DNA of 20,570 bases, from positions 1 through 20,570 of the IMG/VR virus record IMGVR_UViG_3300045733_000299; one strand, written 5' to 3'. Below, piece by piece: positions 10,950 through 20,503 of the stretch. This DNA comes from a virus. The position numbers were made by a program, and so were the translations under genes. Each line of letters opens with the position of its first letter. Positions within the stretch are counted from its first letter, which is position 1. Under the pieces are notes generated by a model that was not told the origin of the DNA, did no database searches, and saw only the letters and a program-made list of their open reading frames with translations.

Positions 10950-10996
10950 AACTTTGTTATTCTCTATATCAAAAACCTGGATGGTTCGTCCCTCCT
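10950..10996 (-). promoter_or_regulatory. In-frame 5' extension with strong SD and an ATC where a start is expected
   Basis: AGGAGGG (10996-10990) is followed by ACGAACC and then ATC CAG GTT TTT GAT ATA GAG, in frame with the downstream gene. The encoded IQVFD echoes MQVFD, the first five residues of the homing endonuclease. Spacing from SD to ATC is ideal, but ATC is not a normal start codon. The frame is also continuous with the endonuclease frame across its TAG stop. Confidence 0.65.
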
Positions 10997-11567
10997 ATTC
11001 TGTTTTATATTTCCAAATAAATCCTCCAGCAGATATTCTTACATTTTTACACACTAGATGAATATTTGTCGAATTAATTAATAAATTTCTAGATGCTGAT
11101 ATTATACTATCCCATTCTTTAATAAAATTAACCTGTTTATCAAATTGATAAATAATTTTATTATTTGTTCTACGACCAATACCAGATCTTCTTATTTTTT
11201 CTATTGCTTCTTCTGAATGTTTATAACCTCTATTTAAATAAGCAAAAGGTTGTATATTATATTTTGGTTTATATGAATCTATATAACTTTGTTCTAATTT
11301 CATTAATATAGTTATATCTTTTATTGGTAATATATGAAGTATTTTAAATTCAAAATTATTAATACCATATTTATTTATAGCACTTTGTAAATGTTTATTT
11401 AGGTGGTTATTTCTAAATAGTAAATTTCTATGATACCATAGTCTACGATATAAATTTTTTGCAGATCCTACATAACAATCGTTGTTTACATTATTTATTA
11501 TAATATAAACTCCAGGTTTATCATATAAATATTTTCTAAACTTATTTAAACTATCAAATACTTGCAT
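10995..11567 (-). CDS. GIY-YIG homing endonuclease with NUMOD-type DNA-binding tail
   Basis: 190 aa. GIY-YIG module: GVYIIINN (residues 19-26), CYVGSAKNLYRRL (31-43) with the YVG motif and Arg41/42, and LMKLEQSYIDSYKPKYN with catalytic Glu92. A NUMOD3-like segment (RGYKHSEEAIEKIRRSG) and a NUMOD1-like tail (IYQFDKQVNFIKEWDSIISA to GGFIWKY) follow, typical of nicking homing endonucleases. These cut homologous DNA lacking the gene so that it spreads. No RNA splicing core fits around it, so it seems free-standing. It sits between two virion-block genes and uses a TAATG junction that probably belonged to the downstream gene. Confidence 0.92.
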   Translation of the reverse strand: MQVFDSLNKFRKYLYDKPGVYIIINNVNNDCYVGSAKNLYRRLWYHRNLLFRNNHLNKHLQSAINKYGINNFEFKILHILPIKDITILMKLEQSYIDSYKPKYNIQPFAYLNRGYKHSEEAIEKIRRSGIGRRTNNKIIYQFDKQVNFIKEWDSIISASRNLLINSTNIHLVCKNVRISAGGFIWKYKTE

Positions 11568-13787: not shown

Positions 13788-13905
13788 CTTGTTCTTTTTT
13801 AACTATTACTATATTAAATTCAACACCACACACACAAACATACTGAATAACTGATTCTTGTATAATGATCTTATGCTCACAATGTGGACAAACTAATTCT
13901 CTCAT
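13735..13905 (-). CDS. 56-aa zinc-ribbon microprotein
   Basis: ATG 13905, TAA 13737-13735. The N-terminus reads MRELVCPHCEHK and a second pair CVCG lies at residues 24-27, giving a compact Cys4 zinc knuckle over 30 residues, followed by a Lys/Ser-rich tail. Its ATG overlaps the stop of the upstream membrane microprotein as TAATG. The last 53 nt also encode the start of the basic 46-aa ORF in a different frame. The complete CxxC pair and the coupling make it credible. Confidence 0.7.
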   Translation of the reverse strand: MRELVCPHCEHKIIIQESVIQYVCVCGVEFNIVIVKKEQDENKISKNSKSAGKGKD

Positions 13906-14054
13906 TACCTATGTATTATATATATACGCCTTTTAACCTTTACCTTAGGTTCCCTAGGTTCTCTTACAGGTTCCTTGTCCATGTCCCTGCCTACTAATAC
14001 CCCAACACCAAATGCTGCTGCTACTAATATTACTGTTGTTAAAAACCACACCAT
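13905..14054 (-). CDS. 49-aa single-pass membrane protein
   Basis: ATG 14054 after AAAGGAATAATT (AAGGA Shine-Dalgarno), TAA 13907-13905. One TM helix (WFLTTVILVAAAFGVGVLVG, residues 3-22) precedes an Arg/Lys/Pro-rich tail (REPREPKVKVKRR). By the positive-inside rule the tail faces the cytoplasm. It lies between another membrane protein gene and the zinc microprotein. Function unknown. Confidence 0.7.
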   Translation of the reverse strand: MVWFLTTVILVAAAFGVGVLVGRDMDKEPVREPREPKVKVKRRIYIIHR

Positions 14055-14069
14055 AATTATTCCTTTCTT

Positions 14070-14297
14070 TTAAACTATTCTGTATTCACCTAAATGTTCA
14101 TTATATGCCCTCATTATAAAATCATCTAAGGTTTCTTCTGCACCACGCAATGTAATATCAACTGCATATATAAGCCTTTGGGGCTTCTTTTCAAACCACA
14201 GATGAAACATTATATTGCTTGCTAAAGCAGCAGTTAACACCCATGGAAACAATATCAAACAATCTACTATAGTCATACTACTTATTTTAAATACCAT
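14070..14297 (-). CDS. 75-aa single-pass membrane protein
   Basis: The N-terminal 33 residues contain one TM helix (CLILFPWVLTAALASNIMF), then FEKKPQR and a soluble, mildly acidic C-terminal domain of about 35 residues (RGAEETLDDFIMRAYNEHLG). Probably N-out, C-in. It is the first gene after the terminator at 14372-14404, so it may begin a transcription unit; a weak promoter candidate lies just upstream. No family is recognised. Confidence 0.7.
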   Translation of the reverse strand: MVFKISSMTIVDCLILFPWVLTAALASNIMFHLWFEKKPQRLIYAVDITLRGAEETLDDFIMRAYNEHLGEYRIV

Positions 14298-15316: not shown

Positions 15317-15832
15317 TTAATTACTTTTGAATAAAAACTCTTTTAATTCATCAATAGTTAAATCTTTTGTATCTTCAAATACCTTTAACCAATTATTAGG
15401 TATGTTTATTTTTAATAGTTTACGTTTTATCTTATCCCTTATTCTCAATTTTGCTTTCTGTTTATCACTAATTACAGCTGGTCTATTTACTTTTTGTTTA
15501 GTTTGTTTACCATACTTAATACCTTTTAATGGTGCTTCATAAGGTTTATTCTTAGACCATATTGAATCTCTATATTCTATTTCATGTGTATCATGCCATA
15601 TTTGATGACATTTCCTACACAATACAACTAGAGCTTTATCGGGATATTCCCACAACTTATGACCATTGACATAATATAAATGATGTACCTCTAAACTTTT
15701 GTTGTATTTACATTCACTACATAAGTGCATAGATTTGGTTAATAATCTTTGCCTTTTCTTTTGCCATTGTATAGTCTTTAACTCAGCTAGATGTTGAGTG
15801 CTTTTGATTTCTATTTTAGCATTATTTTTCAT
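15317..15832 (-). CDS. HNH endonuclease, probable homing type
   Basis: 171 aa. HNH module with two zinc pairs: CSEC (38-41), LEVHHLYYVNG with catalytic His50/His51, and LCRKCHQIWH (71-80) with Cys72, Cys75 and His80. The C-terminal 70 residues are Lys-rich, probably DNA-binding, ending in a helix (TIDELKEFLFKSN). Free-standing HNH genes of this size in phage genomes are usually selfish homing nucleases; a packaging-associated HNH is the alternative, but it is not next to terL. ATG 15832 follows GGGGGGATT. The structured stretch directly upstream has no coding sense. Confidence 0.9.
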   Translation of the reverse strand: MKNNAKIEIKSTQHLAELKTIQWQKKRQRLLTKSMHLCSECKYNKSLEVHHLYYVNGHKLWEYPDKALVVLCRKCHQIWHDTHEIEYRDSIWSKNKPYEAPLKGIKYGKQTKQKVNRPAVISDKQKAKLRIRDKIKRKLLKINIPNNWLKVFEDTKDLTIDELKEFLFKSN

Positions 15833-16889: not shown

Positions 16890-17099
16890 GCTTATAATAC
16901 GTATATACTGTATAAATGTTACATGTATTAGTAAAAATTGTGTGTATAATGCCCCGCCTTAACTGTTACATTAGTAATACCCCCGTACCTAGTGTATATA
17001 ATGTCGAGCGTAGACTGCCTCAATCAGACTACCCCCTAGCCCTTTGGGCAGGGATGGTACCCGTGGCCAATGAAATTATAAAACTAAAAAATTACGACA
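16890..17099. promoter_or_regulatory. Divergent intergenic control region
   Basis: This spacer separates the leftward and rightward blocks, so both transcription units probably start here. Plus-strand TATAAT occurs twice (16945-16950 and 16997-17002), each in a GTGTATA context; neither has a good -35. Downstream, the leader is GC-richer than its surroundings and folds locally: GTAGaCTG/CAGaCTAC with loop CCTCAAT, then GCCC-TTT-GGGC. The 60 nt before the first plus-strand ATG end in ATTACGACAATG. Confidence 0.5.
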
Positions 17100-17103
17100 A
17101 TGA
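17085..17103 (+). repeat. Partial copy of the start-codon element
   Basis: AAAAAATTACGACAATGA matches the last 11 nt (TACGACAATGA) of the 19-nt element seen at three later starts and includes the ATG of the 64-aa gene. Confidence 0.6.
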
Positions 17104-17294
17104 AAGCAAGAGAAATGTACTTCGTTAGACCAAATGCAGACTTGAGCAAGGTAAAATTAACAGCAAAAGGTGCAAATGAGATCATGATCATAGATGGACA
17201 GAAGTGTGAAGTGTTCGGTAATGCTAAGTGGACAGCTATAAGACCAATCAATGAGCCTAAGACAGCCAAAACAGTAAGAAAGAGCACAAAATAG
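17100..17294 (+). CDS. 64-aa basic protein, first plus-strand gene
   Basis: MKAREMYFVRPNADLSKVKL starts at ATG 17100 within ATTACGACAATGA; TAG stop. Positively charged, with a compact alternating pattern (IMIIDGQKCEVFGNAKWTAI) and a Lys/Thr-rich tail (KTAKTVRKSTK). Being first after the divergent spacer it is likely an early gene. No family is recognised. Confidence 0.75.
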   Translation: MKAREMYFVRPNADLSKVKLTAKGANEIMIIDGQKCEVFGNAKWTAIRPINEPKTAKTVRKSTK

Positions 17295-17338
17295 GGCACG
17301 TGGGCGTAAAAAACCCACATAAAACATCAATTAATGCA

Positions 17339-17372
17339 TGCATACGGATCTTGACTAGATCCAATGTGTGCA
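17339..17372 (+). repeat. 12-bp bulged hairpin in leader
   Basis: TGCATAC-GGATC (17339-17350) pairs with GATCC-aat-GTGTGCA (17358-17372) around TTGACTA, with one G-U pair and a 3-nt bulge. It lies 60 nt upstream of the 59-aa gene, in the 137-nt gap 17295-17431 where I see no gene. There is no U-run, so it is not an ordinary terminator; it may be an operator or mRNA structure. Confidence 0.5.
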
Positions 17373-17374
17373 CC

Positions 17375-17404
17375 TTGACACTATCTAAGCATTAACAATA
17401 ATCA
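17375..17404 (+). promoter_or_regulatory. Possible promoter, TTGACA box
   Basis: TTGACA (17375-17380) is followed after 16 to 18 nt by AATAAT/TAATCA. This resembles a sigma70-type promoter ahead of the 59-aa gene and directly follows the 12-bp hairpin. The -10 is poor, and Bacteroidota hosts prefer a different consensus. Confidence 0.3.
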
Positions 17405-17431
17405 TAACTATTAATAAACACATAGCTTATC

Positions 17432-17611
17432 ATGAAAATATATACATTCTGGTCAAAGAAATTCAATGATGTGGTAGTCATTGTGGAAGAAGATATAACA
17501 TCTGCAATTAAACAATTAAATGCAATGCAAGAAACAAAAGATCATGATTATATTATTGGTTCATCAATACCATGTATTAAAGGATATAATTGCACAACAA
17601 CAATAATCTAA
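17432..17611 (+). CDS. 59-aa protein, unknown function
   Basis: ATG 17432, TAA 17609-17611. MKIYTFWSKKFNDVVVIVEE begins a strand-helix arrangement, followed by DITSAIKQLNAMQETKDHDY and a C-terminal strand. The stop TAA lies inside the repeat stretch that precedes the next gene, leaving only 16 nt between them. The start lacks the ACTACGACA element (leader AGCTTATC). No family is recognised. Confidence 0.7.
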   Translation: MKIYTFWSKKFNDVVVIVEEDITSAIKQLNAMQETKDHDYIIGSSIPCIKGYNCTTTII

Positions 17612-17612
17612 C

Positions 17613-17631
17613 TTAATAACTACGACAATGA
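17613..17631 (+). repeat. Start-codon element, full copy
   Basis: TTAATAACTACGACAATGA, including the ATG of the 208-aa gene. The match to the copy at 18768 extends 5 nt further upstream (CTAAC), giving 24 identical nt. Confidence 0.85.
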
Positions 17632-18254
17632 AAACTTTGACACTAGATCAATATCCTAAACATAGAGGAATTAATCCAGAATTATTATCAACAGATCAAA
17701 TAAACATAAGAGTTATTGCAACAACTATAACAAATGTTGAAACTAAAGTATGTAAGAAATGTCTTAATACATTACCAATAACAGAATTCTGGTTCAATAA
17801 CAAAACAAAAAATTATAGAAAAAGTAAATGTAAAGACTGTATGTCTGAAGAACAAGGTGTTATTGAAATAGGTAGAGTTAGATTTGCAAGGAAAATATTA
17901 ACAAAAGGTTTTAGACGATGTTCAATATGTAAAGATATTAAACACATATCTGAATTTAGTAAAGACAAGCACTCAAAAAATACAAAGGATAATAAAACTA
18001 GTCACACTTGCAAAGACTGTAATTATAAATTACATAGACATTATTTAGATAATGTACATAACAAAAGAGTAGAAGCAATGCCAATAAAACACACAGTAGA
18101 TAATAAAGATTTTAAATCAGATAGATCCTTTGCAATATATCTATTAAAAACATATGAAATACCAATAACACAAACAGAAAAAAGGATACAAACATATAAA
18201 TATACAGACGAACAATGTACATTACCATCACATAAAATACGACATAAACCATGA
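17628..18254 (+). CDS. Double zinc-knuckle protein
   Basis: 208 aa, Lys-rich. Two zinc units of the same type: CKKC (42-45) with CKDC (68-71), and CSIC (98-101) with CKDC (128-131). Each contains a short motif before an aromatic (LPITEFWFNNK; IKHISEFSKDK) and ends in CKDC. This arrangement, CxxC, about 22-26 residues, CKxC, is widespread in phage and HNH-like nuclease N-termini. The catalytic His cluster of an HNH is not obvious, although HRHYLDNVHNKR follows. Probably a nucleic-acid-binding protein. The start lies in the 19-nt element; the end overlaps the next gene as ATGA. Confidence 0.8.
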   Translation: MKTLTLDQYPKHRGINPELLSTDQINIRVIATTITNVETKVCKKCLNTLPITEFWFNNKTKNYRKSKCKDCMSEEQGVIEIGRVRFARKILTKGFRRCSICKDIKHISEFSKDKHSKNTKDNKTSHTCKDCNYKLHRHYLDNVHNKRVEAMPIKHTVDNKDFKSDRSFAIYLLKTYEIPITQTEKRIQTYKYTDEQCTLPSHKIRHKP

Positions 18255-18652
18255 TATCAGTTAGACACCTCAACCAGCCAATAGTCAAACATGTTCCAAA
18301 GAGGACAGAAGCAGACTATATTATCAAACGTGACACACTTGATATGCTTGATAAACTAGCAGGTAAGTTACCAAAGTTTAATCATATATTATTCCCAAGT
18401 AATAATATCATGCATAAACATAATAGTAAATTATTATCATTATTATTAATGATAGTGTTATCATTATGTATATCATGTAGGCAACCTGATGTTAAACAAC
18501 CTCAATCATATCAAACTAATGATATGTTCATACGTGATCTTAGTGATACAACAATACCTGAATTTAAGCGCTTTAAAATAGATACAGCTAAACTAAGGAA
18601 AGCTGCACTTACTAATAAAGCAGACTTAAAAGGTAGAATATATAAATATTAA
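18251..18652 (+). CDS. Membrane or lipoprotein-like protein with an internal start
   Basis: 133 aa, starting within ATGA of the previous gene. Residues 1-53 are polar and basic. From Met54 the sequence MHKHNSKLLSLLLMIVLS then LCISC is a textbook lipoprotein-type signal (basic n-region, hydrophobic h-region, Cys76), followed by a polar, Pro/Gln-rich mature part. If translation starts at ATG 18410, the product is a 80-aa lipoprotein, plausibly an envelope or superinfection-exclusion factor. If from 18251, it is a membrane protein with an N-terminal domain. The box is a loose lipobox because position -3 is Cys. Confidence 0.7.
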   Translation: MISVRHLNQPIVKHVPKRTEADYIIKRDTLDMLDKLAGKLPKFNHILFPSNNIMHKHNSKLLSLLLMIVLSLCISCRQPDVKQPQSYQTNDMFIRDLSDTTIPEFKRFKIDTAKLRKAALTNKADLKGRIYKY

Positions 18653-18655
18653 TAA

Positions 18656-18674
18656 TTAATAACTACGACAATGA
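18656..18674 (+). repeat. Start-codon element, full copy
   Basis: TTAATAACTACGACAATGA, including the ATG of the 31-aa membrane microprotein. Confidence 0.85.
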
Positions 18675-18766
18675 ACAATCAACCTACATCAAATGACAGA
18701 TACATTAATACAATTATTGTATTGATAGTCGCTTTACTCATATGCTTAACAATATTATTTGGCTAA
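18671..18766 (+). CDS. 31-aa single-pass membrane microprotein
   Basis: ATG 18671 lies in a perfect 19-nt element and TAA ends at 18766. A polar N-terminus (MNNQPTSNDRYIN) leads into one TM helix (TIIVLIVALLICLTILFG) that ends the protein, a tail-anchored layout opposite to the minus-strand microproteins. The shared start element makes it credible despite its length. Function unknown. Confidence 0.7.
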   Translation: MNNQPTSNDRYINTIIVLIVALLICLTILFG

Positions 18767-18767
18767 C

Positions 18768-18786
18768 TTAATAACTACGACAATGA
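18768..18786 (+). repeat. Start-codon element, full copy
   Basis: TTAATAACTACGACAATGA, including the ATG of the 85-aa gene. With CTAAC just upstream it is identical to the 17613 copy over 24 nt. Confidence 0.85.
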
Positions 18787-19040
18787 GTAATCATTTAATT
18801 AAAACATTAGACCTTGCTGGCACTGAAACAACAACAGTGCTGGCATCATCAACACAAGAACACAAGATACTACAAGTATGTGTCAAATATGAGATAAATA
18901 AAGGGATATTATTCTCAAGAACATATTATACTCTTAAACATAGAGGTAATATAGTATGGATAGGTGATTATGTTCATATGGCAATTAATAAGTATAATGA
19001 AATACATTCATCATATAAACCTCAACCAATACTGCCATGA
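18783..19040 (+). CDS. 85-aa protein, unknown function
   Basis: MSNHLIKTLDLAGTETTTVL from the ATG within the start element. A longer reading from a TTG at 18759 would place the repeat inside the gene, so the ATG is preferred. The central part has strand-type segments (KILQVCVKYEINKGILFSRT, YYTLKHRGNIVWIGDYVH). The stop overlaps the next ATG as ATGA. No family is recognised. Confidence 0.75.
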   Translation: MSNHLIKTLDLAGTETTTVLASSTQEHKILQVCVKYEINKGILFSRTYYTLKHRGNIVWIGDYVHMAINKYNEIHSSYKPQPILP

Positions 19041-19198
19041 GTGACGATATAAGACAAAATCCATATGTGTTTATTGATAACTATCCAACAGGTATATCAA
19101 TAAATAATAAAATAATAATAGTACATGTAGACTATTTATTATACGCTAAGAAGGCACCATCACCTATAATGCCACGAATAATCATAATGCTCAACTAA
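19037..19198 (+). CDS. 53-aa protein, unknown function
   Basis: ATG 19037 overlaps the previous stop (ATGA) and TAA ends at 19198. MSDDIRQNPYVFIDNYPTG, then a strand-rich stretch SINNKIIIVHVDYLLYAKK and a basic C-terminus PRIIIMLN. Coupled position supports it. No family is recognised. Confidence 0.6.
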   Translation: MSDDIRQNPYVFIDNYPTGISINNKIIIVHVDYLLYAKKAPSPIMPRIIIMLN

Positions 19199-19203
19199 TC
19201 ACA

Positions 19204-19485
19204 ATGAAAAAGATCAATTGTATATTAGTACCTAACATAGGGATAAATGATGCAGTGATAGGATATACTGCAATACGATTCCCTATTATTGAGAAAGACA
19301 CACAAGATTTAATGGATATAGACAATCCTGAGATCACATGTAATGTTGATACCAAGTTTGACTTATTCAGATATATCGAAGATGGTGTACCAAATCTAAC
19401 ACCATTCAACATAACTGAGACATGCCATGCACCATCATTCGATAAAGCTATTCAATGGTTTAATAGAATGACTAGAGCAGGGTAG
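19204..19485 (+). CDS. 93-aa protein, unknown function
   Basis: MKKINCILVPNIGINDAVIG starts 5 nt after the previous stop. Mixed strand and helix, weakly acidic, ending in a helix (SFDKAIQWFNRMTRAG). There is no start element, only TAATCACA before the ATG. Three Cys residues are not in metal-like pairs. No family is recognised. The following 77 nt contain nothing beyond an AT-rich leader for the next gene. Confidence 0.7.
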   Translation: MKKINCILVPNIGINDAVIGYTAIRFPIIEKDTQDLMDIDNPEITCNVDTKFDLFRYIEDGVPNLTPFNITETCHAPSFDKAIQWFNRMTRAG

Positions 19486-19562
19486 CAATAACTCACAATA
19501 ACCACAAATATATATTCGCTAAAATTATTCTAAATCATTCACTATTATTAATAATTACAATT

Positions 19563-20396
19563 ATGGCAAAGCAAACATTCACAGCAGATGAAGCATTAGA
19601 TCTTCTTATCTCCATGAATCCATTACGTTTGGGTGTTAATGCAAACCCACTCGTTGAAAAAGACAATCAGTTTATCATAACTGGCAAAAGGAAGACCATT
19701 AAAGGTATTCCAAATGTTGAAGCATACGTTGACATGACTAAGATAACAGAAGCTGGAAAAGCAGCAAATCCAGGCTTAGTAGCAGGCAGATATATCAGAA
19801 TGACCAAAACTGATATGACAAAAGAAATAACATCATTAACTGACAAATTGAGAGCAGGTCGTAAGCCTGTAGCTGATAACTTATTCGAAAATCAGAATCC
19901 ATTGTTATTCAGCAAACTCCTTCAGTTATTAGGTCAGAAAGATGAGAAAGGCAATTACACATATTTCACAAGAATGCCAGATGATAAAAATGGCAATCCT
20001 GTATTAATACTGAAGATTGCAGTTCCAGGTGCATTTGTAACATTGAACATGCCACCACATTTCAAAATAGATGTAGAAGGCAAAATATTAGCAGGTGCAA
20101 GAAAAGACCTCAGAACACAATCATATGGTAGTCCTGAAAGCATTGTATTCAACGATGTAACACTATTCTTATTACCTGAAGAATTTGAAAGACTTCAGTC
20201 AAAAGCATTGAATATATTTCAAAAGACTGTTGAACCAATGCTTGCGAAAGAAATTGTCAAGATCACAAGAGTTGCTGGTAAAGAAGTTGCTAAAGAAGTA
20301 AAAGCTAATACTACTACTGCAGAAAATCTTGAAACAGCACCACCTGCAAATGAAATACCAGAACAAGAGCTTGATGAAATGGGTAATCCAATTTAA
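19563..20396 (+). CDS. 277-aa protein with acidic tail, possible nucleic-acid-binding role
   Basis: 277 aa, the largest plus-strand gene. Helical N-terminus (TADEALDLLISMNPLRLG), then beta-rich segments (QFIITGKRKTIKG; GAFVTLNMPPHFKIDVEG). A helical segment follows near residues 214-245 and a low-complexity Ala/Thr/Glu/Pro linker ends in the acidic tail EQELDEMGNPI. A beta-rich core plus linker and acidic tail with hydrophobic end is the general plan of single-stranded DNA-binding proteins, but no OB-fold motif is certain. It is the last gene before the terminator. Function unproven. Confidence 0.85.
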   Translation: MAKQTFTADEALDLLISMNPLRLGVNANPLVEKDNQFIITGKRKTIKGIPNVEAYVDMTKITEAGKAANPGLVAGRYIRMTKTDMTKEITSLTDKLRAGRKPVADNLFENQNPLLFSKLLQLLGQKDEKGNYTYFTRMPDDKNGNPVLILKIAVPGAFVTLNMPPHFKIDVEGKILAGARKDLRTQSYGSPESIVFNDVTLFLLPEEFERLQSKALNIFQKTVEPMLAKEIVKITRVAGKEVAKEVKANTTTAENLETAPPANEIPEQELDEMGNPI

Positions 20397-20431
20397 TAGA
20401 TTACCTAAATAAAATACCACTGAAGGTTGAA

Positions 20432-20503
20432 TGTACTCTCACACATTACTGTACCAACATAGTTTGTCGTAGGCTATGTCAGTAATGAGGGAGTACATTT
20501 TTT
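20432..20503 (+). terminator. Long three-stem intrinsic terminator
   Basis: TGTACTCTC pairs with GGGAGTACA, CATTACTG with CAGTAATG, and ACATAG with CTATGT around an 11-nt apical loop TTTGTCGTAGG, all coaxial with small bulges. It is followed by TTTTTT and then CCCTATTTTTTG. It ends the plus-strand unit. It is much longer than needed for termination, and its loop complements the start-codon element. Confidence 0.85.
20464..20472 (+). other. Terminator loop complementary to start-codon element
   Basis: TTGTCGTAG in the apical loop is the exact reverse complement of CTACGACAA, which directly abuts or overlaps the ATG of the three full element copies (17613, 18656, 18768). With the partial copy at 17085 it pairs as well with one G-U. 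The loop is exposed in the predicted stem-loop. Confidence 0.6.

Follow-up and report, generated by a model that had tools for sequence, protein, structure and literature searches.

A message can be repressed by its own three-prime untranslated region (3' UTR) when the latter pairs with the start region, as exemplified by OppZ and CarZ, autoregulatory 3'-UTR-derived small RNAs (sRNAs) of Vibrio cholerae (PMC7398697), and by the icaR mRNA of Staphylococcus aureus, where pairing between a 3'-UTR motif and the ribosome-binding region disturbs the initiation complex (PMC3868564). Phages also encode antisense and small RNAs, including lambda aQ and P1/P7 c4 (reviewed in PMC12197685). In plant RNA viruses, 3' CITE kissing loops pair a 3' hairpin loop with the 5' region of the same message. 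A 3'-UTR anti-start element of the sort described below was not found in that review or in the literature we searched, nor did our search, whose coverage is incomplete, return any report of such 3'-UTR regulation in crAss-like phages.

The DNA analyzed here, a fragment of 20,570 bases hereafter called the window, comes from an uncultivated phage. Its large terminase is 46–55% identical to those of cr118_1, cr10_1, cr60_1, and ProJPt-Bp1 (all named Suoliviridae), meeting the terminase criterion for placement in the Crassvirales family Suoliviridae; this placement rests on the terminase alone, portal and capsid not having been compared. The host itself is unknown, and a Bacteroidota host is inferred from the family. 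Named phages contained neither a DNA match to the locus nor a homologue of the last operon gene. The features used in the analysis are as follows.

Minus strand of the window: structural genes
17100-20396, plus strand: divergent early operon
16984..17099, plus strand: leader of the first gene, with a promoter-like TGTATATAAT stretch and a GC-rich hairpin-forming element GCCTCAATCAGACTACCCCCTAGCCCTTTGGGCAGGGATGGTACCCGT
17085-17103, plus strand: copy of the start element TTAATAACTACGACAATGA with three mismatches, at the first gene of the operon
17092..17100, plus strand: partial start element TTACGACAA of the first gene (AUG at 17100)
17100..17294, plus strand: first gene of the operon, 64 aa
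17305-17319, plus strand: hairpin 3' of the first gene, which could end or attenuate transcription
17613..17631, plus strand: perfect copy of TTAATAACTACGACAATGA, at the gene starting at 17628
18238..18244, plus strand: weak candidate element TACGACA (7 nt), 7–13 nt upstream of the AUG at 18251
18656..18674, plus strand: perfect copy of TTAATAACTACGACAATGA, at the gene starting at 18671
18768..18786, plus strand: perfect copy of TTAATAACTACGACAATGA, at the gene starting at 18783
19563..20396, plus strand: last gene of the operon, 277 aa, function unknown, directly before the terminator
20429..20500, plus strand: operon terminator hairpin, followed by U runs (stems: outer 20429-20440/20489-20500, middle 20444-20451/20480-20487, inner 20457-20462/20474-20479)
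20463..20473, plus strand: apical loop of the terminator, TTTGTCGTAGG, 11 nt

Two minus-strand products were noted in passing: a 190-aa product (10995-11567) that, judged by eye alone, resembles a GIY-YIG homing endonuclease, and a 171-aa product among the minus-strand genes (15317-15832) that matches HNH endonuclease families. The 277-aa protein had no PHROG, Pfam, or fold match; its structure model is of medium confidence (pLDDT 65) with no fold match below 0.001, and an "SSB-like" label was dropped. An HMM identified homologues of this gene in six relatives, and these homologues serve as anchors when 3' UTRs are compared below.

Each perfect copy of TTAATAACTACGACAATGA ends in the start codon plus one base, and nucleotides 20464-20472 of the terminator loop are the perfect 9-nt antisense of CTACGACAA, which occurs in the window at exactly three plus-strand positions and one minus-strand position (20464-20472), with 0.08 matches expected. 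The apical part of the terminator reads ACATAG-TTTGTCGTAGG-CTATGT, and the whole hairpin folds at -33.1 kcal/mol (z -5.2). Its loop is not fully open, since the thermodynamic fold shuts part of it with weak G-U/A-U pairs. The partial element of the first gene, TTACGACAA, forms nine pairs with the loop, one of them G-U (duplex -10.4, net -4.9 kcal/mol), and the TTAATAACTACGACAATGA copy at the 17628 gene reaches -13.4 kcal/mol for the duplex and -7.9 net. Five of the nine operon starts carry at least 7 nt complementary to the loop, a total never matched by shuffled loops in 5,000 trials; the TACGACA candidate overlaps the end of the preceding gene. The element has A at -3 and -6, both covered by the loop pairing, and A at these positions promotes or tunes initiation in Flavobacterium, a member of the Bacteroidota, which initiate without Shine-Dalgarno (SD) pairing (PMC6847099). 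An earlier note on this DNA had described a start element repeated at three starts with a partial further copy, and a terminator loop containing the perfect 9-nt antisense of the segment adjoining the AUG; both observations held. It had also placed loop and elements on one transcript in the orientation needed for pairing, of which orientation, strand, and operon held, with the qualification that hairpins after the first gene may split the transcripts.

The leader of the first gene contains a GC-rich element common to the relatives (leaders of ten relatives aligned), which could be a structured 5' UTR or a phage-polymerase promoter, a role inferred from sequence alone. A leader core, CAATCAAAC-ACCCCC-hairpin-GGG-CCCCGT, precedes the first divergent-operon gene in ten relatives (window 17013-17075; L105 rc 11112, L106 8308, L204 7676, L192 rc ~1340, L201 ~85-145), and two mutually exclusive C-run/G-run pairings look possible within it. 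In a covariance-model search of Rfam, leader and terminator came nowhere near the gathering score.

How remarkable is one such match? A shuffled 11-nt loop carries all nine antisense letters with a frequency of 4e-4. When all 3'-UTR hairpins were scanned against all start regions in all fetched loci without anchoring, matches of 8–10 nt showed no excess over a reversed-sequence control (74 vs 108 at 9 nt, in AT-rich genomes), and because of this we do not take any single loop/start match as evidence. The match at the window's first gene is likewise unremarkable by itself (shuffle p = 0.36 on energy, genome-background p = 0.087); what is unusual in the window is that the loop complements a repeated element. 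The claim that the match was unlikely to arise by chance thus held only in part, for the anchored comparison and the three-fold repeated element, and failed for any single loop/start match. An exact search of viral contigs for TAACTACGACAATGA gave 91 scattered matches, which were not used as evidence.

Close relatives were located via the terminase, and their neighboring DNA was compared at two anchors: the region where the divergent operon's first gene starts, and the 3' UTR that follows its last gene. The eight relatives, all with the divergent operon, are G005 (IMGVR 3300009009_000011), G004 (3300045733_000310), G011 (3300045973_000434), G012 (3300033143_001610), G031 (3300002220_000060), G017 (3300002220_000359), G016 (3300027719_000021), and G018 (3300040801_002149). 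In six of them the last gene belongs to the 277-aa family: the HMM was built from the window and five relatives, and then detected G016 at 9e-7; the last-gene homology of G018 is weak. Further protein or alignment queries for close relatives returned only known contigs or one identical contig.

Start elements differ widely among these genomes (CTACGACAA, CCACGAC, TCAACTGGAAAT, ATCAAAATAGAAATGAAA, TAACACCCAA, GTTATGCCAA), each being complementary to its own 3' UTR. In G005, three genes carry CACGACAATG and the first gene carries CCACGACATG, and the 3' hairpin exposes GTCGTGG; the pair CCACGAC/GTCGTGG spans only 7 nt, and at one aligned position U-A in the window is replaced by C-G, a compensatory double change. 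The first gene of G004 has ACGACAAA, which pairs with TTTGTCGT (terminator loop TTTGTCGTGAT), and the G012 loop ATAACTGGCA pairs across the first AUG, again over only 7 nt (TGCCAGT/ACTGGCA). The start region of G031, ATCAAAATAGAGAAATGAAATG, faces TTTCATTTCTATTTTGAT immediately 3' of the last gene with ~18 pairs and a 2-nt bulge, and its element stands at three starts (the first gene and two more). TAACACCCAACA of G017 complements TGTTGGGTGTTA, situated in a hairpin loop; GTTATGCCAA of G016 complements TTGGCATAAC, over the AUG; and G018 is a ninth, weaker case. G011 served as a blind prediction: its first gene begins TTCAACTGGAAATG and another gene TTCAACTGGAAAATG, from which TTTCCAGTTGAA or part of it was predicted, in writing and before the 3' sequence was seen, to be exposed there. 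The sequence found directly 3' of the stop codon was TATCTTGATTTCCAGTTGAGATA, a 12-nt perfect antisense (pair TCAACTGGAAAT/ATTTCCAGTTGA) in a small hairpin of its own, upstream of the real terminator.

Across genomes, the antisense usually sits in an apical loop, its setting being the terminator loop, a separate hairpin, or an apparently unstructured 3' UTR. Since that loop need not belong to the terminator, the conserved unit is a 3'-UTR anti-start element rather than the terminator loop as such. In L101, a more distant relative outside the formal test, two starts carry GTCTAACCTAA, and AGGTTAGACA and a loop TAGGTTAG lie downstream. The gut Suoliviridae cr118_1, cr10_1, cr60_1, and cr115_1 showed no convincing antisense, from which we infer that the feature belongs to a subgroup; three of these four have leader-like sequences upstream of the first gene, and the first gene annotated in cr10_1 is possibly not the right anchor.

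Several other non-coding features were seen in these contigs. In L101 (L107 rc 4355 and 5355), the antisense of GTCTAACCTAA is present twice; one copy occupies a 10-nt hairpin loop located downstream of the first gene instead of beyond the last one. G016 (L201 2690-2880) and G017 (L196 rc 2190-2440) share a long structured non-coding stretch 3' of the last gene, TAGGGGGTGATAATCAAAGTTAGT..ACAGCCGTTTT.CGGATAAGG..ACCAACGAGC, which may be an unknown phage RNA and, in G016, includes the antisense loop; the 3' region of G016 had no Rfam match. In several relatives (L115 rc 20750-21500, L105 rc 13880-14200, L118 rc 18490-18640), the last gene is immediately preceded by long non-coding stretches whose ends match (e.g. 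AAGCCTTGTTAT..ATAACAAGGCTT), and directly 3' of the first gene in G004 (L106 8615-8640) there is a tRNA T-arm-like GCGGGTTCAATTCCCGC, perhaps a tRNA remnant.

We assessed coordinated change with a permutation test over the nine contigs, pairing the first-gene start window (-25 to +12) with at most 310 nt after the last gene. Each pair was scored by its best perfect run, in which G-C counted for more than A-T. The own-genome assignment was the single best of 362,880 permutations (p = 2.8e-6); 69 permutations were as good when scored by length and 164 when scored by duplex energy. Orientation controls stayed at background (sense p = 0.47, reverse p = 0.27, complement p = 0.34). Three of the contigs (G016, G017, and G018) were recruited in part by a match search, and the 310-nt limit was chosen so that G017 would be covered. 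When the test was confined to the seven contigs with an HMM-family last gene, own-genome pairing ranked first among 5,040 assignments, with the same result at 175 nt. Measured against same-strand windows of each contig, the combined p was 7e-8, with some per-genome p values weak. Because most elements are unrelated in sequence between genomes, shared ancestry cannot yield these matches. We therefore regard it as very likely that complementarity between start element and 3' UTR has been conserved through coordinated change in the nine contigs, with pairing in cells remaining an inference. The earlier note had proposed just such a covariation check and named as its refutation relatives that keep the start element beside unrelated or uncompensated loops; the opposite was found, elements and 3' antisense differing between relatives and matching within each genome. 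Its central claim of a loop antisense to start elements, with possible regulation, is thereby supported, with the location amended to a 3'-UTR element.

Pairing energy and accessibility, also proposed there, were computed, and the net values are favorable. After opening both partners (~4.5 kcal/mol for the window loop), net interaction energies fall between -4 and -11 kcal/mol in all genomes computed except G018 (-1.2); G016 was not included. All computed duplexes lie at about -20 to +8 of the start codon (from -25 in G018), i.e. in the initiation region, and in G012, G016, and G031 the duplexes cover the AUG itself. Structure near the start codon hinders initiation in SD-less Flavobacterium, and Bacteroidia do not use SD pairing (PMC9976891). 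Given that the duplexes fall in the initiation region, that the element has its As at -3 and -6, and that SD-less initiation is structure-sensitive, a block of initiation is the simplest reading.

In the proposed mechanism, several genes of the divergent early operon would have in common a "private" sequence spanning the ribosome-binding region, from about -20 to +8 relative to the AUG, with its antisense held in the 3' UTR of the operon's final gene, usually in a hairpin loop. With the build-up of transcripts that extend to the 3' end, the antisense segment would pair with the start elements and keep 30S subunits from binding, so that translation of several early genes would fall together; the regulator could be a stretch within the mRNA or an RNA processed out of its 3' end. 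We lean, by a modest margin, toward such repression of early-gene translation; pairing in cells and repression are both inferred, in the absence of expression data or RNA from infected cells. The earlier suggestion that a 3'-derived small RNA or a kissing loop blocks or paces several early genes thus remains an inference. Action mainly in trans is inferred, as hairpins after the first gene may separate the transcripts, and cis action is also possible; the clear terminator GGGGCTCGTCCCCTTTTTT 3' of the first gene in G031 favors trans. No sRNA promoter or processing site was identified. Separately, a motif AATAACCAC-ATATA-ATTCGCTAA is kept ~40–50 nt upstream of the 277-aa gene in the three closest contigs (window 19510-19535; G005, L105 rc ~14155; G004, L106 ~9830), where the proteins behind it are only 32–37% identical; it is possibly a separate promoter of the last gene.

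Other explanations were weighed against this reading. A long-range 5'-3' clamp in cis, closing the mRNA into a loop that stabilizes the message or promotes translation without repression, would be served by the same conserved complementarity, and the first gene, with the 5'-most start, is among the partners in most genomes. We nevertheless consider it unlikely: duplexes over the ribosome-binding region, and over the AUG in G012, G016, and G031, should hinder initiation, one loop would need to serve three to five starts, and hairpins 3' of the first gene suggest an often separate transcript. Elements and loop could instead be copies of a DNA-level binding or recombination site (operator, promoter, or inverted repeat), with RNA pairing incidental; a protein site could occur either way round, and the element is repeated three times. 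However, the excess is confined to the antisense orientation, with the other three (sense, reverse, and complement) at background, which is why we reject a DNA-level site as the main reading; the element also abuts start codons, and the match is kept between relatives whose sequences are wholly different, which is not expected of one protein's site. This alternative, too, is improbable.

An activating role is a further alternative. The 3' RNA might act as a phage-supplied surrogate anti-SD that guides ribosomes to the phage's own starts in an SD-ignoring host or, in a bolder form, a private, fast-changing start-site code and its matching RNA might single out a set of phage genes to be translated preferentially. 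In favor of activation, SD pairing goes unused in Bacteroidia (PMC9976891, PMC6847099), and the start elements are genome-specific and complementary to a separate RNA. Yet the pairing extends to the AUG or to the adenines at -3 and -6, which leaves too little distance for an SD-like helix, and the 3' hairpins show no apparent ribosome-binding module; we hold the first form to be very unlikely, and the bolder form equally so. Chance combined with shared ancestry, whereby the window match is coincidental and those of the relatives are the best of many, draws on the lack of excess in the unanchored scan and on the weak individual p values. Against it stand the 12-nt outcome of the blind G011 prediction, the fixed-anchor permutation and background tests (2.8e-6 and 7e-8), and the fact that elements are unrelated between most genomes, leaving it a remote possibility.

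Under the favored reading, repression from the 3' UTR, the phage likely regulates several of its own genes at once via the tail of its own message, the regulation being inferred. If true, this would be a phage version of 3'-UTR autoregulation in which several genes are addressed via a shared start element with a fast-changing, self-consistent sequence. Little is known of the timing of gene expression in crAss-like phages, whose Bacteroidota hosts work without SD pairing, and a concrete RNA mechanism is offered here, one 3' UTR acting on several genes via a shared start element. The relatives form a natural series of ready-made compensatory variants that makes the mechanism testable, and their ever-matching variable pairs are candidate orthogonal RNA regulators.

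Compared with known systems, the locus resembles plant-virus 3' CITEs in setting a 3' hairpin loop against the 5' region of the same viral message, but those loops promote eukaryotic translation and leave the start codon uncovered. With lambda aQ and P1/P7 c4 it would share a phage-made RNA that pairs with phage mRNA, pairing being inferred in our case, whereas those RNAs are encoded as separate antisense or processed RNAs. Like icaR, it has a short 3'-UTR motif directed against the ribosome-binding region. In icaR, however, one gene is involved and the motif pairs with the SD, a criterion not met here, where up to five candidate starts lack an SD and pairing covers an A-rich, SD-less start element; as for the cis arrangement of icaR, start region and 3' UTR share strand and operon, and hairpins after the first gene may split the transcripts.

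The likeness to OppZ and CarZ is that a 3'-UTR segment of an operon complements translation-start regions of the same operon, for which negative feedback is the natural reading. An antisense in the 3' UTR or terminator region of the operon, the first criterion for such a system, is present in the window and its relatives, and the second, covarying complementarity to the operon's own starts, is met at the sequence level, with pairing in cells inferred. The phage pairing segment differs in lying mostly in a terminator or 3' hairpin loop, without evidence for sRNA release, RNase E, or Hfq. The phage case also differs in belonging to a crAss-like phage, in a probably SD-less setting, with several genes under one start element, and in that element and antisense vary from phage to phage and yet remain complementary.
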